Origin: Pirellulaceae bacterium
GTDB lineage: Bacteria > Planctomycetota > Planctomycetia > Pirellulales > Pirellulaceae
NCBI GenBank assembly: GCA_016784735.1
Contig: JADHUC010000061.1
Span: 1-43,710 of the forward strand
Reading direction: 5' to 3'
DNA length: 43,710 nt
The stretch's first letter is position 1. Each line of letters begins with the position of its first letter. Positions 7,178 to 23,141 of the stretch are shown in pieces. The notes below the pieces were generated by a model. The model was not told the DNA's origin, searched no databases, and saw only the letters and a program-made list of their open reading frames with translations. Position numbers and translations under genes: made by a program.

Positions 7178-8332
7178 TCAAGCAGACTGCAATGCGTCAA
7201 CCAGTCGCTCCACGTCGTCCTCGCTCACGTAGGCATGAGGGCTGATTCGCAGCCAGTTGTTACGCAAGCTGAGCACGACGCCGCTTTTCAGGCAACGTTG
7301 CCTCTCCGCAGCCAGGTCTCGCCCCGGAAGGTCGAACGACAAGATTCCCGAAGCGTGGCGTCTGTCGCGGCTGCTCTTGATGTCCGCTCCGATTTCCTCC
7401 AGTCGCTTTGCCGCGTATTCGTTCAACGCGAGAATGCGGTCCGCAATTGGCGACGTTTCCGAAGTCAGTCCAAAACGGGCTAGAACTTCGAGACTGGCTC
7501 CTAAAGCCGCGAAGCCAACCATGTTTTGCGAGCCTCCTTCGTAGCGCGACGCCGCTCGACGGATATCCAGTTCGCAACGGGCGAAATCGTGAGCGTGCAC
7601 AACGCTGTTCCAGCCCACGTTCAGCGGTCGCAACACGTCCAGATGCTCCTCGCGAACATAGAATACGCCGGCGCCTTCCGGGCCCAGCATCCATTTGTGT
7701 CCGTCCGCGGCCAGGAAGTCCACGCCTGTGCGACGCACGTCGATAGGAAAAACGCCCAATCCTTGGATGGCGTCCAGAAAAACGAGAATCCCACGATCGT
7801 GCGCCAAAGTGACCAATTCAGCCACGTCGAGGCGCCAGCCCGTTGCGTATCCGACCCAACTGGCCGAGATGATCCGCGTTCGCTGATCGCATGCGTCGGC
7901 GATGCGATTCAGGTCCACCTGGACGCCCTCGACGGGCACCCTACGTGTCTGGACGCCACGGCTGGCCAAGTTCATCCAGGGGTACAGATTCGAAGGAAAC
8001 TCATTTGCGAGCGTGACCACGTTGTCGCCCTCGCGCCAGGGGAATCCCTCGGCTACCAAATTGATCCCGGTCGTCGTATTGGGAACCAAGGCGACTTCGC
8101 TTGTGTCCGCTGCGATCAACTCCGCCGCCAGTTGGCGAACCTCGCTCAGCCGCTCCTCCCACTGGGGCCACACCGTGTCGCCCTCCTCGGCCGCCTGCCG
8201 CGACCATGTCGCAACCGCCTCGGCCGATGGGTTAGTCAGCGGAGCAACGGCCGCATGATCGAAATAGGCTAGCTTCCTGGCAACCGGCATCAATTCGCGA
8301 AACTCACGCCAAGGATTGTCCAGCTCGTTCAT
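7178..8332 (-). CDS. Class-V aminotransferase fold PLP enzyme (cysteine-desulfurase-like)
   Basis: A 384-residue pyridoxal-phosphate enzyme of fold type I. The PLP lysine is Lys213 in DGHKWMLGPEG. Asp187 and Gln190 in FLDAIQGLG hold the cofactor ring, and PNTTTGIN (84-91) is the phosphate-binding segment. The C-terminal loop where SufS-type desulfurases carry the sulfur-accepting cysteine reads SGVVLSLRNNWLRISPH and has no cysteine. True cysteine desulfurase activity is therefore unlikely. An isopenicillin-N-epimerase-like, kynureninase-like or other C-S/C-N lyase or aminotransferase role fits better. No pathway partner is adjacent. It is transcribed toward the histidine kinase gene. Confidence 0.88.
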   Translation of the reverse strand: MNELDNPWREFRELMPVARKLAYFDHAAVAPLTNPSAEAVATWSRQAAEEGDTVWPQWEERLSEVRQLAAELIAADTSEVALVPNTTTGINLVAEGFPWREGDNVVTLANEFPSNLYPWMNLASRGVQTRRVPVEGVQVDLNRIADACDQRTRIISASWVGYATGWRLDVAELVTLAHDRGILVFLDAIQGLGVFPIDVRRTGVDFLAADGHKWMLGPEGAGVFYVREEHLDVLRPLNVGWNSVVHAHDFARCELDIRRAASRYEGGSQNMVGFAALGASLEVLARFGLTSETSPIADRILALNEYAAKRLEEIGADIKSSRDRRHASGILSFDLPGRDLAAERQRCLKSGVVLSLRNNWLRISPHAYVSEDDVERLVDALQSA

Positions 8333-8387
8333 TGCTCATTTCCGATAAGTATGTGTTACGCGTGTGGAGAAAAGGTGGACTGCTCCA

Positions 8388-8475
8388 AGTAGGTCCTGTC
8401 TGCCGGACGGGACCGCGAACCGTGCGGCAACGTTCTTGTCCAATCCGAGGTCCCGTCCGGCAGCCGGGACCTACC
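8388..8475. repeat. Paired palindrome, REPIN-like, copy 1
   Basis: Two inverted copies of a 27-bp unit (8388-8414 and 8449-8475; 24 of 27 bases match) around a 34-bp spacer. Each unit is itself palindromic around GTCYG..CGGAC, and the outer ends read AGTAGGTCC and GGACCTACC. Related pairs are at 12117-12218 and 17291-17375. It lies in the divergent region between the aminotransferase and the small membrane protein. Confidence 0.88.
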
Positions 8476-8655
8476 AGCCATCCCCACTCGCCGTCGGGAT
8501 GGGCGGGAAAAATGCGGTTGCCCCACCCATAATCCACCTAAATGAGTGGCATATGGCAATCAGGCTGGTGACAACCGGAAACTATGAACTATACTTAAAC
8601 GCTTACAGCGCTGATGCAAAGCGGGCCAAACTACGCAGCTTCGAGGACACTTCGA

Positions 8656-8847
8656 ATGCCGAAGGCATTGTGCATAACGGGACTGGCTATTTCAGGTGTT
8701 CTGTTCCTTCTGTTTCTCTGGGACTTGGCGACGCCTAGCTGGATGGCACCATTCAAAAAAGCCAGCATAATGATGGACATTGCGTTCATTCTCTGTTCGG
8801 CCGGATTGGGCTATCTGAGCTGGATCACGTGGAAAGAGAACACGTAA
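8656..8847 (+). CDS. Small membrane protein, two helices
   Basis: A 63-residue protein with two predicted transmembrane helices (about residues 5-25 and 38-56) and a short polar connection (TPSWMAPFKKAS). The ATG at 8656 is preferred because it follows GAGGA at about 8643-8647; a frame from 8614 only adds a polar stretch. The function is not recognised. It is placed alone between a repeat and the secreted vWA gene. Confidence 0.7.
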   Translation: MPKALCITGLAISGVLFLLFLWDLATPSWMAPFKKASIMMDIAFILCSAGLGYLSWITWKENT

Positions 8848-8985
8848 GCCGCGGCAGTTGCATCGTCCCTCACAAAGCTTTTACAAACTCTTGACGCCGC
8901 TCTGACCACCTTTCCGTTAATAATTGCTCTAATCCCAGTAGGGCAAACGTACTCTGTCGAACCAGAACGGGAAAGGAGCTTGGGA

Positions 8986-10311
8986 ATGAGTGCATTCACT
9001 AGACACGTCGCGGCTTCGTTGGCGTTGGTATTCGGCTTGTCGGCGTCGATGGCAACGGCAAGCCAGGTTCGCCTGGACGTCTCCATGGCGAAGCCAACGC
9101 TGCTGGCCAAGAAGAAACAGACGACTCACGTCAAGATCGGACTGACCGGGTTCAAAATGGAGAACGGAGGAAACCGTACTCCGGTCAACGTGTCGTTCGT
9201 GTTGGACAAGTCCGGATCCATGACCGGCGACAAGATCGCCAAGGCCAAAGAAGCCGCGGTTGCAGCGATCCAGCGGCTCACGAAGCGGGACATCGTGTCG
9301 GTCGTGGTTTACGATTCCACCGTTCGCGTCATCGTACCGGCGACCAAGCTGACAGACAGGCAGATGGTGTGCGATTCGATCCGCCGCATCGAGGCCGGCG
9401 GCACCACGGCCTTGTTCGCTGGGGTCAGCAAAGGCGCAGACGAGCTCCGGAAATTCCTGGACAAGAATCACGTCAACCGCGTCGTCTTGCTGTCCGACGG
9501 TTTGGCAAACGTCGGCCCGCAATCGCCAAGCGAGTTGGGCAACCTGGGCGCTTCGTTGATGAAGGAAGGCATATCCGTTTCGACCATGGGGCTCGGTTTG
9601 GACTACAACGAGGATCTGATGAGCCAACTCGCTGCACGCAGCAGTGGCAATCACATCTTCATCGAGAAGGCCAGCGATCTGGTCAAAATCTTCAATTGCG
9701 AATTCGACGACGTGCTTTCCGTGGTTGCGCAGGAAGTCGCCATCGACATCCAAGTCGAACCGGGCGTTCGACCTGTGCGAGTGCTGAACATGGATGCCGA
9801 GATAAACGGGCAGCGTGTGATCGTCAAGATGAACCAACTCTATAGCCAGCAGGAAAAATATGTGCTGCTGGAAGTCGAAGTGCCGGCGACCAGGGCGGGA
9901 AAGACGCTGGACGTTGCCGAAGTGAAAATCTCGTACTCCAACATGCAAACCAAGACCACAGATCGGCTGTCCAGCGCCGTGAGCGTGAACTTCACAGATT
10001 CGGTCGCGGAAGTCGAGGAAAAGACCAACCTGGTTGTCCTGGAGGCTTGCGTGCTGCAGATCGCCAACGGGCAAAACCAGTTGGCTACAGTGCTGCGTGA
10101 CAAAGGCGACATCGAAGGCGCGAAGAGAATCCTGATAGCAAATGGGAAGTACTTGGCCGAGAATGGCAAGGTGCTCGACTCCAAACTGCTGCAACTTCGT
10201 TACATAGACAACGTGTATCAGGCCAAGAACCTGGAAGGCACCGAGTGGCTTAAAACCCGAAAGCAAATGCGGCGGCTACAGTTCGCGGATTCGGTGCAGC
10301 AGAGTTATTAG
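8986..10311 (+). CDS. Secreted vWA-domain protein
   Basis: A 441-residue protein with a signal peptide (about 1-26, ending ATAS) and a vWA domain at about 68-245. The metal site is intact: DKSGS (74-78), GGTT (138-141) and the aspartate in LLSDG (171). After it come a beta-rich region with conserved EKYVLLEVEVPA and a helical C-terminus. This is the usual plan of secreted bacterial vWA proteins related to the inter-alpha-trypsin-inhibitor type. The start is ATG 8986, seven bases after AAAGGAG (8972-8978). A TTG at 8980 is too close to that site. It is transcribed alone and its ligand is unknown. Confidence 0.92.
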   Translation: MSAFTRHVAASLALVFGLSASMATASQVRLDVSMAKPTLLAKKKQTTHVKIGLTGFKMENGGNRTPVNVSFVLDKSGSMTGDKIAKAKEAAVAAIQRLTKRDIVSVVVYDSTVRVIVPATKLTDRQMVCDSIRRIEAGGTTALFAGVSKGADELRKFLDKNHVNRVVLLSDGLANVGPQSPSELGNLGASLMKEGISVSTMGLGLDYNEDLMSQLAARSSGNHIFIEKASDLVKIFNCEFDDVLSVVAQEVAIDIQVEPGVRPVRVLNMDAEINGQRVIVKMNQLYSQQEKYVLLEVEVPATRAGKTLDVAEVKISYSNMQTKTTDRLSSAVSVNFTDSVAEVEEKTNLVVLEACVLQIANGQNQLATVLRDKGDIEGAKRILIANGKYLAENGKVLDSKLLQLRYIDNVYQAKNLEGTEWLKTRKQMRRLQFADSVQQSY

Positions 10312-14923: not shown

Positions 14924-16099
14924 CTACTGGCGGTCGATCATGAACAATCCGTTGTGAGCGACGGGCAAAAGCGGCCCGTAGTATTTGTTGTCGTGGCCCC
15001 AGAGGCGTCCGGGATACCAGACCACTCCGATTCCCACATTCCAAGACTCTTGGGCGTGGCCTGCAAGCGCACCTCGCCCATCGCCTTCCTCGGGAATCAA
15101 GTAGGAGAAGCCCCCTTCCAGCGCCCATGCGTCGGCCAAGGGAAGTCGAACGTCGGCACCGATCAACCCGTCGCTCTGATTCGACCATCCCGCGAACATC
15201 CGGGCCTCGCTTTCGAGGCATGGGCCGAACTTCTGTCGGTAGAAGCAGGCGTACAGGTCGGTCGATTCCCAAGTCTCAAGCGCTCCTAGAACTCCCGGCT
15301 CCGTGGCCGTCCTTGTGCCATTGGTGAACCAAAAGCCAATATCGTGCGTCCCACACGTTACCCAACTCAGTTCGCCACGTATGTTGAGAAAATCTGCGTC
15401 GTGATACCAACTGTCCGAGAGGTAGTCGACGACGACACCGCCCTGCAATCCCACGTCCACGCGGCGAAACAGGCCAGCCGTGACAAACGTCTGGTTGCGG
15501 GAGTCGTTCGTGAATTCTGCGCCGGCAAAATTGCTGTGTACGGCGCGAAAGCCAATCTGGCCGCCAAGGCACTGGAATCCCGGAATCGGGACACCCCAAT
15601 TCAAGCCTTCATTGAAACCGAAGCTCCCGCTGCCGCTCCCGTTCTGATAGTTGACGGGGCCCGTGAATCCCTGGACGCCGAACGATAGTTCAAGATTGCC
15701 CACGGGGAGCATTCCACACGGAACCAGACAGCATTCCGCACAACTCCCGTCTACACAGGTCCCTCCCATACAGCCCCCACCGGCACCACATGATCCGGCC
15801 ATGGGAGCCTCCTGTCCAATGACCAAGTCTCCCGTGGAAGCGTCTTCGTAGTACGTGCCGCCGTCGACAATCTCGACGTCCGGCTCCATCGCCGATAAGG
15901 TGGCACCCTTCATGTGTTTCGGTACGAAGCCAACCGGTTGAGCTGCCGTCCTTGCGACAAGTTGACGCGGACTTTCAGCCCGAACCGCTCGCTTCTTGGT
16001 TGTCGTCTGGCCTGATGCATCGTTGGCCATGACTCCCACCCAAACCGCTAGCAGACCCAATACACAGAGTTTTCCAAGTGTTCGCGCGACGACAGTCAT
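14924..16099 (-). CDS. Exported beta-barrel-like protein (planctomycete family)
   Basis: A 391-residue protein with a signal peptide (about 1-30), a variable linker, and a cysteine cluster with seven Cys between residues 104 and 128. From about 137 a repeated strand pattern resembles an outer-membrane barrel (NLELSFGVQGFTGPV, GLFRRVDVGLQGGVVVDYL, TDLYACFYRQKFG). It matches my memory of a planctomycete-specific family of unknown function (possibly DUF6666; a profile search would settle it). The Cys cluster may form disulfides or bind metal. The start follows AAGGA at a normal distance. It is separated from the upstream STN gene by a bidirectional terminator. Confidence 0.8.
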   Translation of the reverse strand: MTVVARTLGKLCVLGLLAVWVGVMANDASGQTTTKKRAVRAESPRQLVARTAAQPVGFVPKHMKGATLSAMEPDVEIVDGGTYYEDASTGDLVIGQEAPMAGSCGAGGGCMGGTCVDGSCAECCLVPCGMLPVGNLELSFGVQGFTGPVNYQNGSGSGSFGFNEGLNWGVPIPGFQCLGGQIGFRAVHSNFAGAEFTNDSRNQTFVTAGLFRRVDVGLQGGVVVDYLSDSWYHDADFLNIRGELSWVTCGTHDIGFWFTNGTRTATEPGVLGALETWESTDLYACFYRQKFGPCLESEARMFAGWSNQSDGLIGADVRLPLADAWALEGGFSYLIPEEGDGRGALAGHAQESWNVGIGVVWYPGRLWGHDNKYYGPLLPVAHNGLFMIDRQ

Positions 16100-17557: not shown

Positions 17558-18466
17558 ATGACGCAGGTTTCCCGCGAACCTACTAACGCTGCGCGCACTG
17601 AAGCGTGTAACGACGGGCATTCCACCGTCGGCAACTGGAGCGTTGTCGGCCTGTTGGGGGAAGGTCCGTGGTCGCGCGTGTATCGAGCCAAGCCGCTGGG
17701 TTCCGATGCCAGAGCGCACTCGGACTACGCCATCAAAGTCGCTCGACAAGATGCCGGCACGGACACCGCCACGGCGATCCGTCTGATTCGCCGAGAAGCG
17801 TCTGTCGGCCGCACCGTGGCCCATCCGCATCTGACTTGCGTCCTCTCTTCGCACGTCAGCCAATCGCCGTACTACGTCGTGATGCCTTGCCTGGACGGCG
17901 TGACGCTGGAAGCCGCACTTGCCGAAGCCGGGATAGTCCTCACACCTCACGCCCTTTGGATTGCCCGTCAAACGGCACAGGCGATCCGGGCTCTACACGA
18001 TCACGGATGGATCCACTCGGATGTCAAACCCGACAACATTTTCGTCTCGCAAGACGGCCACGTCACGCTTCTGGATCTTGGGCTAGCTCGGCAGATAGGG
18101 CACATCGAGTGCGCCGGCGACGGCCCCTTGGCGGGTACGATGGCCTATGCTGCACCGGAGGCCTTCAGTTCCATCGACGAAATCGGTCCGCGGAGCGATA
18201 TCTACAGCCTGGGCGTAACACTGTTCCGGATGTTGACGGGAACCTTGCCCTTCACGACCCACACGGCGGCGGACCTGGCCGCCGCGCACCTGCGCGGGAC
18301 ACCTCCCGATCCCCGCCGATTCAATCCGTTGCTTCCCAGCCGCGTGGTTCGCTTGTTAAAGAGGATGCTGACCAAGCAGCCCTCGCGCCGACCGTGCGCC
18401 GCCGAATTGGTCGCTTGGCTTGCAGATCTGGAAATCGACACATTGGACGACCGTTTTGCGGCCTAG
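17558..18466 (+). CDS. Ser/Thr protein kinase (PknB-like), soluble
   Basis: A 302-residue protein with only a kinase domain and no transmembrane segment. The glycine-rich loop is [12 protein letters not shown] (31-42), the ATP lysine Lys60 (YAIKVA) and the alpha-C glutamate Glu80. The catalytic loop reads HSDVKPDN (153-160) in place of HRD. The metal-binding loop reads DLG (173-175) in place of DFG, and AAPE ends the activation segment. The proton-acceptor Asp155 and both Asn/Asp ligands are kept, so it is likely active. The start at ATG 17558 is a choice; 17453 is possible. Its stop TAG shares the palindrome CTAG with the convergent isomerase stop. Confidence 0.9.
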
Positions 18467-20127
18467 GTCCATCCCTTTCCGCTTTTCTTTGTGCCGCAAA
18501 TGGCCACTTCCATGCCCATGGCTTTCGCCATGCACGCCTTGGCCAACATCGCCTTATCGGCCTCGACCGCCGAATTGGCGTAGGCAACTTGAATGTGATT
18601 GCTCTTGTGGCGAGCCATCATCTGGTCGCGGGACACGCCGTAGGTGACGGCGTGCATGATCGGCCATTGCGGCGTTGTCGCTTGCCAGCGTCGTTCGGTT
18701 TCTTCTTGCGGAAGCTCGATCACGCCGGCACGGCCCAAGTCCATTTTCAGTTTCTTGTTTTCGATGAAGACGCGCGACCAGACGATCTCGCCAAGCTTCG
18801 AGATGCCTTTGATCGTGCCGCCCCCGTTGGGGAAGTACATCGCAGGCTGCCTTTCGCTGGTGACTCCTTTCCAGCCGCCTTCCAGATGGGCCGGTGGCAC
18901 CGAGCCGCTGATCAGAAACACCCAGACGTACTCCTTCGTCGAGCCCGAGGCATCCCAGTCTCCCCAACGCATGTCGTGCAACGTGTTCTCGACGGGCTGC
19001 CCCATCGTCTTGTGGACTCGATAGGTCATCAGGCCGTCTAGCCCGGCGCATTCGTCCACTTCGTTGAAGTGCGTTACCGGTTCGCCCTTGTAGAGGACGC
19101 GTCGCCCGTCGCGACTTCGCACTGGCGGTCGATCGGCGTTATTCAGAGTACCTTCGACCAAGTCACTGGCCGGCAGCAGGTCCTTGAGGCCCTGCTGGTA
19201 CTGAATGCCAATCAGATCGCATCCGAAATCGTCCGCAATGCGCACCGCGGCGATGTACATTTTGCACTGCTTGAGAATCTGGGCGTCGGTCAAGTGCTTT
19301 GCGTGACTGGGCCCCGTTTGGAAAGTCACGCCTTTCTTTTCCATCCATTGGCGAACGGCCTGGGCTTCGTCCTTGCTGACCTGTGTGGTCTCGTAATACA
19401 GCGCCGATTGGCTCAGGCGTTCCTTGTAAACTCCCGTAGGATTAAGCAGATGGTCGGGGATGATGGCATTGAACATGCCCATGCATCCTTCATCGAACAC
19501 GCCCATGATGGCCTTTTCGCGTTTCACTTGGGCCGCCAGGGCTTCGCCCAACTTCTGCTCCTGCTGGCCGACTTTGACTTTGGCAAGCGGCGTCGCGTGA
19601 TTGACCTTGTGACGCACCTGCCCCTTGTCCAGCCACGTTCTCAGGTTGTCCTGGAACGCATCATCGGTGAAGTCTTCGCTCCACAGCGTCGAGTACTTGA
19701 CGCCCGCCTTGGTCATGGAACCGTTCAAGTTCAGCATGCCGACGAGTCCGGGCCACGTGCCTGACCAGTTAGCCACCGTGAGGATCGGCCCCTCGTGGGA
19801 AATCAGACCGTGCAAAATATGATGGGAATACTGCCAAACGGCTTCGGCCACGATCAGCCGGCACTTGGGATCGATCCCGGCAAATACCTGCATACCTTCC
19901 TTCTGCGACCCGATGAAACCGTGTTTTTCGTTCTTCTTGTACGGGTGAGCGCGAACGAGTTTGTAACCGCAGCCGGCTACGGCCTTGGCCAACGTCGCCT
20001 CCATGTCCTTCTGGGCGGCCCAGCAATTCTGGTTGGCCGTCAGACGCAAATCGCCGTTGGCCACGAGCAAAACGTCACGTTCGCCGGCCTTTGGGGTCTC
20101 GGTCACCTTGGGTACCACATATGCCAT
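18463..20127 (-). CDS. L-fucose isomerase-like protein
   Basis: A 554-residue sugar isomerase of the FucI/AraA fold, close to the length of FucI. Recognisable parts are an N-terminal domain, the segment [13 protein letters not shown] in the central region, the [13 protein letters not shown] segment, and a C-terminal beta-domain ending [11 protein letters not shown] and [19 protein letters not shown], the last being typical of fucose isomerases. The DEG glutamate and NHI histidine are likely metal ligands (inference by position). The substrate could be L-fucose or another aldose/ketose. Kinase and aldolase genes are absent nearby, so pathway use is not proven. AAGGAGA precedes the ATG. It is divergent from pup. 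Confidence 0.88.
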
Positions 20128-20352: not shown

Positions 20353-20359
20353 AAGGAGG
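20353..20359 (+). promoter_or_regulatory. Strong ribosome-binding site of pup
   Basis: AAGGAGG ends 7 bases before the ATG at 20367. An ATG at 20360 touches the site directly and opens an unrelated frame, so it is not used. This site is the main proof that the 54-codon frame is translated. Confidence 0.8.
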
Positions 20360-20366
20360 ATGACGC

Positions 20367-20531
20367 ATGCCAACCGATACGATGATCAGGGAAAGGGAAT
20401 ACACGGATACGGCTCCAGGCAAGCCGGAGACTTTGCCACTGGAGAAGGCCCTGGAACAGATCCACCGCGACAGCCGGGAGAAGGCCGAGGAATTCCTGGA
20501 CGAGACGGTCGTTCCTCACGGGGGTGAGTAG
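20367..20531 (+). CDS. pup: Prokaryotic ubiquitin-like protein (Pup/UBact type), 54 residues
   Basis: A small acidic protein (14 Asp/Glu against 7 Lys/Arg) that ends in Gly-Gly-Glu, the exact C-terminus needed for ligation by PafA without prior deamidation. The C-terminal half (LEKALEQIHRDSREKAEEF, then LDETVVPHGGE) has the helix-forming pattern that in Mycobacterium Pup binds the ligase and proteasome ATPase. The N-terminus is polar and probably disordered. Lys19, Lys27 and Lys39 could be self-modified. It has a strong ribosome site and overlaps the pafA start by 8 bases, so translation is coupled. The sequence is diverged from actinobacterial Pup and may belong to the Gram-negative UBact group. 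Identity rests on the C-terminus plus context. Confidence 0.9.
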   Translation: MPTDTMIREREYTDTAPGKPETLPLEKALEQIHRDSREKAEEFLDETVVPHGGE

Positions 20532-22218
20532 CAATTTGCCGGCAATCTTCGATCGCTTGGTCGGGCTGGAAACGGAGTATGCGATGCGTTTCCATCCGGC
20601 CAATTCTTTTGCGCGCAAGCCCGCCAAGTTCCGACTCTACTTGTCCCTGATAGCCGCGCTGCGCGAACGCGTATTGACTGTCCGCGCGAAGCATTTCAAA
20701 GAAGGCGTGTTCATCGCCAACGGTGGCGCAGTTTGGTTCGAAACGGAACGGATCGCTTCGGACGGCGGATTGGTCGAAGGCGCCACGCCCGAGTGCCGTG
20801 GGCCGCGTCAGGTGCTGGCCTACCAACGCGCCCAGGACGAGCTTCTCTCGCAGGCCGCTCGCGCTGCCCCCGTCGACGGAGAACTGCGGCTGATTAAGAA
20901 CTGCCGCGACAGCCGTGATAACGTCTACGGAGCGCAGGAGAATTACGAGGCGATATTGGCCGGCGGGTTCCGCCTGATGCTGTGGCGAGCCGGATTGATC
21001 ATGCTGCTGCCGGTGGTGCTGGTGATGTGGGCGTGCCTGCTGGCAGTGATCATCTCTGTTTTCATTTACTTGGCCGTCGCGGGTTTGGCCTATCTGATCA
21101 TTCGGCTGTTGGTCAAGCGACACCGCCGAATCGGAGTGTTTCTTTTCGGGCGAGACTTGATCGAAGGTCAGGAGACGGGCGCACCGCTGCCCGCGTGGAT
21201 GGAATGGTTGATGCTTTGGATAGCGCGTCTGATTAGTGCTCCGCTGGCAATCGGCTTGATTCTTCTGGCCCGGCTCACAGCCTTTCGTGAAATCCGCAGC
21301 CAGGCGTTGGCCCTGCTGGTCAGCCGATCCGTTATTGCAGGCAGCGGCATGGTCGACCGGGAAGGCAACTTCCATTTGGCCGACAAGGCACCGGCCATAA
21401 ACTGCATCGTCGGCTTTGGCGGCTACTTGTGGGACCGGCCGATTTTCAACTTTGGTCATTTCTTCAAAGCGGTGTCGTTGGAGTCCTTTCTGGCGCCGGG
21501 AGACTACTTCGGACTGTTGCGCGAACGACAGCGGCTGCAGATCGGTCTAGGGGACTCGAACATGTCCGAGAAGGCCGAGTTCTTACGAATCGGAACCACT
21601 TTGCTGGTACTGGATGCGATCGAAGCCGGACAGTTGAAAAATGCCCCGCGTTTGCGGCGTCCCATCCGGGCACTGCATCAGATATGCGCGGATCCTTCGC
21701 TGTCGATCGAAGTTGATTTGGTGGGTGGGCGCCGCGTCACGGCCCTTGACTTGCAGCGATACTACTTGGATGCCTGCCAACGATTCGTTGATACGCGCCC
21801 GGACGCTCCGGCCCAGGCGTACGAAGTACTGGCCACGTGGGCCGATACGCTGGATTCGCTCGAACGCTCGCCCGAATCCTTGGTCGGATCGGTGGATTGG
21901 GTGACGAAGAGGTTCTTGCTGGAGAAGGCGGGGCATGATGCACAGTGGGCGGAACGCAAGAAGATCGACATCCGCTACCACGAATTGTCAGACGAAGGAT
22001 ATTTTCACGTGCTGGCGCAGACGGGTCTCACGGAGACACTGGTAGACGACGACGAGGTGGACCGAGCGACGCGCACGGCGCCACCAAACTCGCCCGCAAC
22101 GACGCGAGGCCACTACATTCGTGAGTTTGCGGGTGGCGACGAACCGTTTGCGGTAAACTGGAAACGAATCCTGATCGGCCGCGGCAAGAAGGCCAAAGTG
22201 ATCCGGCTGTATCGTTAG
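20524..22218 (+). CDS. pafA: Pup ligase (PafA homologue) with a transmembrane insertion
   Basis: Joins the C-terminal glutamate of Pup to lysines of target proteins with ATP. In order: GLETEY (14-19, metal-binding glutamates), NGG (66-68) and ATPEC (87-91), KNCRDSRDNVYG..ENY (125-141), GDSNMSEK (343-350), DWVTKR (458-463), IDIRYHEL (481-488) and RGHYIREF (528-535). All are hallmark PafA/Dop segments. It is 564 residues long; actinobacterial PafA is about 450. The surplus lies at about 150-258 and contains hydrophobic stretches at 152-197 and 224-252, likely several membrane helices. The aspartate of the usual YLDVG motif appears to be Glu73. GTG start at 20524. PafA rather than Dop is inferred from ETE and linkage to pup. 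Confidence 0.93.
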   Translation: MSSNLPAIFDRLVGLETEYAMRFHPANSFARKPAKFRLYLSLIAALRERVLTVRAKHFKEGVFIANGGAVWFETERIASDGGLVEGATPECRGPRQVLAYQRAQDELLSQAARAAPVDGELRLIKNCRDSRDNVYGAQENYEAILAGGFRLMLWRAGLIMLLPVVLVMWACLLAVIISVFIYLAVAGLAYLIIRLLVKRHRRIGVFLFGRDLIEGQETGAPLPAWMEWLMLWIARLISAPLAIGLILLARLTAFREIRSQALALLVSRSVIAGSGMVDREGNFHLADKAPAINCIVGFGGYLWDRPIFNFGHFFKAVSLESFLAPGDYFGLLRERQRLQIGLGDSNMSEKAEFLRIGTTLLVLDAIEAGQLKNAPRLRRPIRALHQICADPSLSIEVDLVGGRRVTALDLQRYYLDACQRFVDTRPDAPAQAYEVLATWADTLDSLERSPESLVGSVDWVTKRFLLEKAGHDAQWAERKKIDIRYHELSDEGYFHVLAQTGLTETLVDDDEVDRATRTAPPNSPATTRGHYIREFAGGDEPFAVNWKRILIGRGKKAKVIRLYR

Positions 22219-22754
22219 CTGTAGCCCGCGTGCGAAAGCAAGGTGGCGATGCTATCACGCGACTTGCCGATTCTCGTAAAACACTATTGACCCTGCCGGT
22301 TGAATGTCATATCCTCCCGCCTCGTCATGACGGTAGACCATGTGACCAGCGAGACACGAAGGCCGTCACCAGAAGGCGGTTGTCTCACTCGACGCGTGGT
22401 CGTGCCGGGCGATGGCAAACGAGTGAACGAGTCTGCATCTGGAGCGCAGCCGTGCTGCGTCTCTGCGGACCACGAAGCGGTGTGTTGGCACGGAAGCTGA
22501 CCCGCCACTTCGCCAAACACCACGGTTGCCGGAAAACGGACCCACAACCACAAGCAGGATGCGCCGGTTGTACTTCGTCCAATCGCTCCCGGAGCTAGTG
22601 CGGAATCCTTTGCCCCCCTGGGATGCCGTTGCTTCCGGGAGCCTTTTTTTTGCGCCCATCCCCTCTGGAATTCTTCAGAAACACCTCGAAGTCGCAGCGA
22701 CTTGGTGACGATACCGATTTAAGAGGTATTGCCGGTTCTTTGTGGAGCGTTGCC
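22219..22754. other. Gene-free stretch after pafA; possible structured RNA
   Basis: About 536 bp without a convincing gene. At 22351-22386 GAGACA pairs with TGTCTC, enclosing CCGTC/GGCGG (22363-22367 with 22375-22379). A second hairpin, CGCAGC-CGT-GCTGCG, lies near 22446-22460. A 57-codon frame from ATG 22327 exists, but no ribosome site or family is recognised. A T-run near 22645 follows no stable stem that I can find. Confidence 0.35.
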
Positions 22755-23141
22755 TTGGACATCGATCCTGAATTCATTGAGTGGGTCCGCGGTTGGATCA
22801 ATGACATCCTGGTGTGGATCGGTTTCGGCACCGTCGTCGGGCTGTTGGCCAAGGCGATCATGCCGGGCCGGGACCCCGGCGGGGCGATTGCCACGCTAGC
22901 AATGGGAATTGGCGGCACCGTGATCGGATGTGGCCTACTGGCCTTTTTCTTTGAAGGTCGTCGCGTCACCCCAGTCAGCGGGTGGGGCTTCGCCGTCGCC
23001 ACGGCCGGGGCGTTCATCATCCTGTTCTTCTACAAGCTGCTAGGCGGCTATTGGTTCGTCGAAGGTGAACACCCGCGAATGCGTCTGCGCCCCCACCGGC
23101 GCCGGCGAAGATACCGTGCGTCGTATTACGACGATGTGTAG
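22755..23141 (+). CDS. GlsB/YeaQ/YmgE-like membrane protein
   Basis: A small integral membrane protein of 128 residues with three predicted helices. The first two hold the family signature GLLAKAIMPGRDPGG and a glycine-zipper GIGGTVIGCG. The tail is strongly basic (HRRRRRYR). Members of this 'transglycosylase-associated' family are stress-induced inner-membrane proteins; their biochemical role is unsettled. The start taken is TTG at 22755, seven bases after GGAG (22744-22747). A frame from ATG 22623 adds 44 residues that look noncoding. Its position after pafA is 536 bp away and not clearly functional. Confidence 0.8.
   Translation: MDIDPEFIEWVRGWINDILVWIGFGTVVGLLAKAIMPGRDPGGAIATLAMGIGGTVIGCGLLAFFFEGRRVTPVSGWGFAVATAGAFIILFFYKLLGGYWFVEGEHPRMRLRPHRRRRRYRASYYDDV

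Follow-up and report, generated by a model that had tools for sequence, protein, structure and literature searches.

The overlapping pup-like and pafA-like genes that we describe here lie on a planctomycete contig of 43,710 nucleotides (JADHUC010000061.1, analysed at its full length and referred to as the window), and they are compared with three described systems: the actinobacterial Pup-proteasome system, UBact, in which a small tag occurs with a PafA-type enzyme in Gram-negative hosts, and a membrane-bound type predicted in 2008. For the last of these, the relevant sections of Iyer, Burroughs and Aravind (2008) report Pup in Rhodopirellula and Plesiocystis, encoded by small open reading frames (ORFs) that annotation had missed, and ligases in which an insert behind core strand 4 contributes four transmembrane (TM) segments; a link to the proteasome was not seen, pupylation of membrane proteins was proposed, Pup was said to be invariably adjacent, and a linked membrane-protein gene was reported (PMC2588565). 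A 2020 study used single-copy planctomycete PafA/Dop-related homologues as an outgroup, and the term 'transmembrane' is absent from its main text (PMC7947786). Literature searches covering top-ranked titles and the openings of abstracts found no follow-up or experimental work on the membrane type, and the 2008 prediction of a membrane-bound Pup ligase seems not to have been followed up. We conclude that the window pair belongs to the type predicted in 2008 from a related planctomycete and that its novelty is limited; the novelty implied by a first-pass annotation of the sequence falls away, as a planctomycete Pup with an un-annotated small ORF is described in those same sections (PMC2588565). 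The pair is probably a membrane-associated two-gene pupylation system that operates without a proteasome.

The first-pass annotation had pointed to a 54-codon frame ending in Gly-Gly-Glu, preceded at 7 bases by AAGGAGG and overlapping by 8 bases a gene with GLETEY, GDSNMSEK, ENY (here within QENY) and RGHYIREF segments, and all of these features are present (Table 1). The window is one entire contig of a draft genome (11.66 Mb in 450 contigs, 78.7% complete and 5.5% contaminated) whose nearest named relatives are Pirellulaceae/Planctomycetaceae. A search with the window ligase covered this genome and 97 relatives and gave a match in 33 of the 98, one of the 33 being weak. Thirty ligase loci from this search form our first set; the second consists of the 80 named loci that ranked highest among 244 relatives. 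The two sets overlap and their counts are not independent.

It can be seen from both sets that the small frame is conserved beside the ligase. A tag-like ORF ending in GE was found at the expected place in 26 of the 30 loci (for one of the other four, just 29 bases upstream were available) and no more than 450 bases upstream of the ligase gene in 57 of the 80. These 57 tags end in GGE in 48 cases and in NGE, EGE, VGE, QGE, DGE or CGE in the remaining nine, one of which (L095, ending QQQGE) was admitted by name; a GGQ end was permitted in the 80-locus search and none was seen. By record title, the loci with an adjacent tag include Planctomycetota, Myxococcota, Thermoanaerobaculia, Spirochaetia, Oligoflexales and Verrucomicrobia. 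When ORFs ending in GG[EQ] were counted wherever their stop falls within -450 to +90 bases of a gene start, they accompanied 48 of the 78 ligase genes that have at least 140 nucleotides upstream; the same was true of 3 among 627 other ORFs of these loci (at least 150 aa, called simply as the longest frames). With a tighter Pup motif ending in GE the counts were 50/78 and 0/627, but the loci from which this motif was derived overlap with those tested, which makes the GG[EQ] comparison the fairer one.

The window tag, whose C-terminus reads VVPHGGE, was also compared with six relatives over its last 34 codons. The uncorrected proportions of synonymous (pS) and replacement (pN) differences were 0.62-0.84 and 0.21-0.40, respectively, giving pN/pS ratios of 0.31-0.55 in the six comparisons; per site, synonymous change is two to three times replacement change. 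An alignment of 25 of the 26 tags from the first set (L016 was left out) has an invariant start Met and an invariant final Gly-Glu and is otherwise variable, the invariance of the end being partly by construction as the tag searches required GE (or GG[EQ]). Because GG[EQ] ends are enriched upstream of ligase genes and the codons bear the mark of purifying selection, we conclude that the 54-codon ORF is a gene, under purifying selection. Its length falls within the 50-90 residues of Pup-type modifiers, it ends in GGE and it adjoins a PafA homologue. Since the product already ends in Glu, no deamidation step is needed, as had been claimed, and the expectation that so small a gene would be overlooked was also correct, the Pfam and NCBIfam profiles giving no match to it.

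The larger gene encodes a protein of the PafA/Dop family, matching PF03136 at 292 bits (Pfam cut-off 25), which together with the upstream enrichment upholds the initial reading of a Pup-type modifier coupled to a PafA/Dop-family gene. The more specific models, the PafA equivalog TIGR03686 (180.6 bits, cut-off 551.3) and the NCBIfam Dop model (178.7 bits, cut-off 492.3), stay below threshold. An AlphaFold2 model made with the window protein and 52 homologues has a predicted local distance difference test score of 93.5 and a predicted template modelling score of 0.93, and in Foldseek its top eleven matches are all Dop or PafA, among them Dop 7oxv (E 5.9e-27) and the PafA-Pup complex 4bjr (E 1.3e-24). 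Active-site residues are conserved: in an alignment of the window protein with 52 of the 80 named loci, GxETEY, ENY, R268, R337, K462, H486 and R528 are retained in 49-53 of the 53 sequences. A role in defence was considered, and the window ligase had no PADLOC match.

A feature that the first-pass annotation had not noticed is a hydrophobic insert of about 115 residues directly behind the ENY strand, which corresponds to the hydrophobic insert after core strand 4 of the 2008 type and is predicted to be a membrane anchor. Between the aligned blocks after ENY, solved Dop and PafA structures have 0-6 residues and the window protein 105-111. In the model, strand 139-144 is followed by helices at 148-160, 162-196 and 224-251, after which the fold resumes. 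At the insert columns each of the 53 aligned proteins carries 94-138 residues that include one hydropathy peak or more, a count that is silent on how frequent insert-free relatives are; other PF03136 types do occur in the phylum, PF03136 of any type being present in 38 of 392 sampled Planctomycetota genomes.

Table 1. Positions in the window of the pup-like and pafA-like genes and of the elements within and before them.
Feature	Position	Strand	Remark
Ribosome-binding site AAGGAGG of the pup-like ORF	20353-20359	+	7 bases before ATG; read directly
pup-like gene, 54 aa, MPTDTMIREREYTDTAPGKPETLPLEKALEQIHRDSREKAEEFLDETVVPHGGE	20367-20531	+	ATG at 20367; stop TAG 20529-20531
Codons of the C-terminal Gly-Gly-Glu	20520-20528	+	read directly
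pafA-like gene, 564 aa, GTG start	20524-22218	+	8-base overlap with the pup-like ORF
Codon of Glu73, at the catalytic Asp position of PafA	20740-20742	+	HMMER alignment to 4b0t
Hydrophobic insert after the ENY strand, predicted membrane anchor	20947-21294 (codons 142-257)	+	hydropathy, alignment, model

If the pair works as we infer, the 54-aa tag would be ready for use with its C-terminal Glu, and the glutamine-synthetase-fold ligase would phosphorylate the gamma-carboxylate of this residue with ATP and join the activated Glu to lysines of target proteins. The helical insert after core strand 4 would tether the catalytic domain to the inner surface of the membrane, and membrane or membrane-near proteins are the likely targets. 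As neither a proteasome nor Mpa was found, the outcome would most likely be regulatory, or else degradation through another protease.

Several observations weigh against a membrane-associated pupylation system. The tag is not recognised by the Pup profile: PF05639 does not match the window tag, Pup is absent from the matches of 25 tags, and a genome-wide Pup search found nothing at the window ORF; among the control genomes this profile matched in five, including C. glutamicum, and exceeded its cut-off in one. The suggestion that the tag might belong with UBact fared no better, since NF033388 gave no match either, a model that exceeded its cut-off in no control genome and is therefore without a positive control here. 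Thus the comparison with Pup and UBact profiles, which the first-pass annotation had proposed as a check, went against it, and PDB sequences likewise gave no Pup or UBact match; its other check, conservation of the small frame upstream of pafA in related genomes, came out strongly in its favour. The enzyme, for its part, is nearer to Dop than to PafA by both sequence and structure: a profile of 30 homologues compared with solved structures ranks Dop first at 239 bits, with PafA at 177-178 bits, and the template modelling scores of the model, normalised by target, are 0.75-0.84 for Dop entries and 0.69-0.74 for PafA entries. At the position that we take to be the catalytic Asp of PafA the window ligase has Glu73, its GGAVWFE standing opposite GSRLYLD in a phmmer alignment; this column of the NGxRLYxD strand holds Glu in 30/30 sequences of the 30-homologue profile and in 52 of the 53 aligned proteins (Asp in one), so that the carboxylate is kept. 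In Dop, hydrolysis of the phosphorylated intermediate is believed to depend on a water molecule activated by D94 (PMC8599861), a residue that presumably corresponds to the Glu73 column. Insertion into the membrane is predicted from hydropathy and the model, and the segment counts disagree (two long helices in the model, 1-6 hydropathy peaks per sequence, four TM segments in Iyer et al.); the aligned homologues were, moreover, picked by likeness to the window protein, so a shared insert is partly expected. Absences from a genome that is 79% complete are, by themselves, weak.

A further point against is that at 21 of the 78 loci no neighbouring tag could be recognised, although one was sought by pattern, by a profile run over the loci and by comparison of upstream ORFs. 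Judged by their record titles, these loci come mostly from Rhodopirellula, Stieleria, Rubripirellula, Roseiconus and other planctomycetes, together with one 'Proteobacteria' metagenome-assembled genome (L102); R. europaea 6C (L138) has its tag adjacent to the ligase. A whole-genome search with the tag profile, run with no tail filter, found an unlinked tag in all four of the genomes with tagless loci that were tested (L109, L113, L120 and L137), one of them that of R. baltica strain BR-MGV. The matches (E 1.1e-6 to 1.3e-3) extend to the C-terminus, which reads RSN(T/R)(S/G)xDGE, and the genome of L120 has in addition a second ligase locus, L133, with its own adjacent GGE tag. Given these unlinked DGE tags, the tag gene can part from the ligase gene and GGE is not strictly needed. 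The unlinked loci (L161-L164, in the genomes of L137, L109, L113 and L120, respectively) lie away from the ligase; downstream of the tags of L163 and L164 the genes look alike by eye, with a membrane/coiled-coil protein followed by ORFs of about 210, 780 and 215 aa.

The alternative that survives best is that one anchored enzyme attaches the tag and also takes it off again, so that the membrane mark would be reversible and no separate Dop would be required, and we regard it as possible, if on balance doubtful. Searches for partner genes covered 60 genomes (the window genome and relatives), of which 20 have PF03136 matches, and 17 of these 20 carriers have a single such gene; likewise eight of ten named genomes have one match, with two in one open frame in Paraliomyxa and two genes in Roseiconus. 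The search for Dop proposed by the first-pass annotation came out in two ways, as most carriers have no second gene of the family and the window genome is among the three that have more. In one of the three (G006) there are two genes, each with 40-42% identity to the window ligase; the window genome and G009 each have two further, different relatives. A dual activity would also suit an enzyme closer in score and fold to Dop, and the spacing between the first catalytic Glu and the Glu at the HPE/LVE position (69 residues by alignment count, against 54 in PafA and 91 in Dop) suggests that part of the Dop-loop length is present. On the other hand, a tag that is used irreversibly or diluted by growth would require no remover.

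It is unlikely that the pair is instead degradative, with the tag delivering membrane proteins to FtsH, Lon, Clp or HslUV rather than to a 20S proteasome. FtsH is a membrane protease, AAA proteins with a below-cut-off pup_AAA match are found in 59 of the 60 genomes, and PF00227 genes in 52 of 60, the single one typed further (L040) being HslV. However, the AAA and PF00227 genes occur in carriers and non-carriers alike, and no such protease or AAA gene recurs beside the pair. The proteasomal partners that the initial annotation had proposed to look for were not found: no genome of the 60 has an Mpa/ARC ATPase over the TIGR03689 cut-off (the ARC-like relative in the window genome reaches 89 of 504.75 bits and is part of a separate cluster, described below), and among the 20 PF03136 carriers none has more than one PF00227 gene, with none in the window genome, itself incomplete, so that an alpha/beta 20S pair, PrcA/PrcB included, is excluded on the available evidence. 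A link to the proteasome or Mpa was equally not found in the neighbourhoods of the 80 loci, where, among ORFs no shorter than 80 aa and no more than 8 kb away, no neighbour except the tag recurs across lineages and the recurring neighbours mostly reflect synteny among close relatives. A conserved membrane-protein partner beside the ligase was also considered, and none recurred across lineages in the same survey.

We consider it quite improbable that the enzyme is merely hydrolase- or deamidase-like and the small protein an unconjugated regulatory peptide that binds it. The closeness to Dop and the Glu in place of the catalytic Asp would fit such an enzyme, but the tag retains its Gly-Glu end (in part by construction) and varies elsewhere, the four unlinked tags found without a tail filter end in GE as well, and 17 of the 20 carriers are without any other PafA/Dop-type gene. 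That the short ORF arose by chance or is a leader without tag function is scarcely credible: it has no Pup or UBact match and is missing at the expected place in 21 of 78 loci, but the 48/78 against 3/627 contrast, the purifying selection and the tail retained by unlinked copies all speak against it.

Outside the window, the same genome contains a second, composite cluster, which is more surprising than the window pair. At the start of contig C394 (L160) two other PF03136 genes flank a small ORF ending RRNRSGQ, and contig C20 (L159) opens with an ARC-like ATPase gene pointing out of the contig; in G009 (L158, on G009:C75) the ATPase gene is contiguous with genes of the C394 kind. Upstream of the ATPase gene on C20 are a JAB-like gene (17.9 bits, where Pfam requires 25), genes for a 90-aa protein ending SAGGR and for a 322-aa protein, a 206-aa gene with an HPN...CLG motif, which we take to be an E2 motif, and, at 67 bits and so above its cut-off, a ThiF gene. 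The entire set recurs in the same order in G370 (L165) and G126 (L166), and in the window genome it is spread over C20 and C394. In G009 the ThiF and 206-aa genes are missing at the point where the contig runs out, and in G297 (L167), which belongs to the same genus as G126, only the Pup-type half and an ATPase fragment at a contig end are present. All five cluster genomes have a tag-like ORF, with the ends SGQ (3), SGE (1) and PGE (1). By NCBIfam models one of the two ligase relatives of the window genome is Dop-like (97.5 against 65.8 bits) and the other PafA-like (100.6 against 53.9), and the ATPase scores best with pup_AAA (89.3 bits, with CDC48 near at 82.5), all of these far below cut-offs. 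With the 206-aa family as query, the top five PDB matches are ubiquitin-conjugating enzymes with weak E values (0.016-0.1), and all 14 comprise eight such enzymes and six cytochrome f entries. No match was found for the 90-aa protein, a terminus of GG followed by one residue is missing from two of four homologues, and it is a candidate ubiquitin-like protein by position and size only.

The cluster is thus seen to bring together two sets: one of ubiquitin type (ThiF/E1, a JAB-like and an E2-like protein and the protein of about 90 aa, with SAG close to its end) and one of Pup type, the second in this genome (a tag with Dop-like and PafA-like proteins and an ARC-like ATPase). This combination was not found in literature searches, one of which was covered in part; the window genome is a draft with 5.5% contamination, which has to be kept in mind here. 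Should it be one working system, it would link two conjugation chemistries usually treated as independent. Extra PF03136 genes of this kind are present in just 2 of the 20 membrane-type carriers, so the composite cluster is no general partner of the window pair. Other arrangements were also seen in the phylum. L168 (G342:C1) has a lone PafA-like gene at 7841-9259 with an upstream ORF at 7409-7786 ending YSSGE and no matches to other members of the composite cluster. In the 392-genome Planctomycetota search, tandem PF03136 genes with top scores of 312-343 bits were found on G123:C97, G423:C901, G120:C31, G157:C308 and G158:C63; G123 and G120 have no Pup or UBact match over cut-off, so their tags may also be unrecognised.

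Within the window, the divergent upstream neighbour of the pair (18466-20127, minus strand) has weak L-fucose isomerase domain matches below the Pfam cut-off. The next ORF downstream (22623-23141, plus strand, 172 aa) is hydrophobic by eye, has no Pfam match and does not recur beside other ligases of the 80 loci, and a gene at 14927-16099 on the minus strand matches DUF6666, a family of unknown function, at 293 bits.

If the ligase works, Pup would be used by bacteria as a signal and not just as a degradation tag, which bears on the origin of ubiquitin-like marking outside proteolysis. We tentatively put forward, as a joint proposal with rather less than an even chance of holding in full, that anchored, proteasome-free and possibly reversible single-enzyme pupylation is a widespread non-degradative mark of membrane proteins in Gram-negative phyla, and that the Pup-type and ubiquitin-type sets of the composite cluster of the same genome work together. 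The 2008 prediction of a membrane-bound Pup ligase is now testable, as the pair is present in many genomes and named strains carry it, Paraliomyxa miuraensis SMH-27-4 (L117) among them, and as the tag family with its Gly-Glu end, unrecognised by profiles, and the near-invariant Asp-to-Glu change in the active site offer further handles.

In comparison with the known systems, the window pair shares with the actinobacterial Pup-proteasome system the PafA/Dop fold, most catalytic motifs and a tag ending in Glu, and it differs in having no PF05639 match, no Mpa/ARC over the cut-off, no 20S pair and, in 17 of 20 carriers, no separate Dop, as well as in the hydrophobic insert and the Glu in place of Asp. 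It resembles UBact in its small tag, Gram-negative hosts and PafA-type enzyme; unlike UBact, it has no NF033388 match and no proteasome pair was found. With the type described in the relevant sections of Iyer et al. (2008) it has in common a Pup of 50-90 residues ending in G[EQ] and encoded by an unannotated small ORF, a TM insert right after core strand 4 and the absence of any link to proteasome genes; in contrast to the linked membrane-protein gene and the invariable adjacency reported there, no neighbour besides the tag recurs across lineages and unlinked tags were found in four of four tested Rhodopirellula-like genomes (PMC2588565). To the earlier accounts the present data add the spread over records of several phyla and statistical evidence that the tag is a gene, one that no Pfam or NCBIfam profile matches; they further add tags unlinked from the ligase, the replacement of Asp by Glu and a survey of genomes for partner genes.

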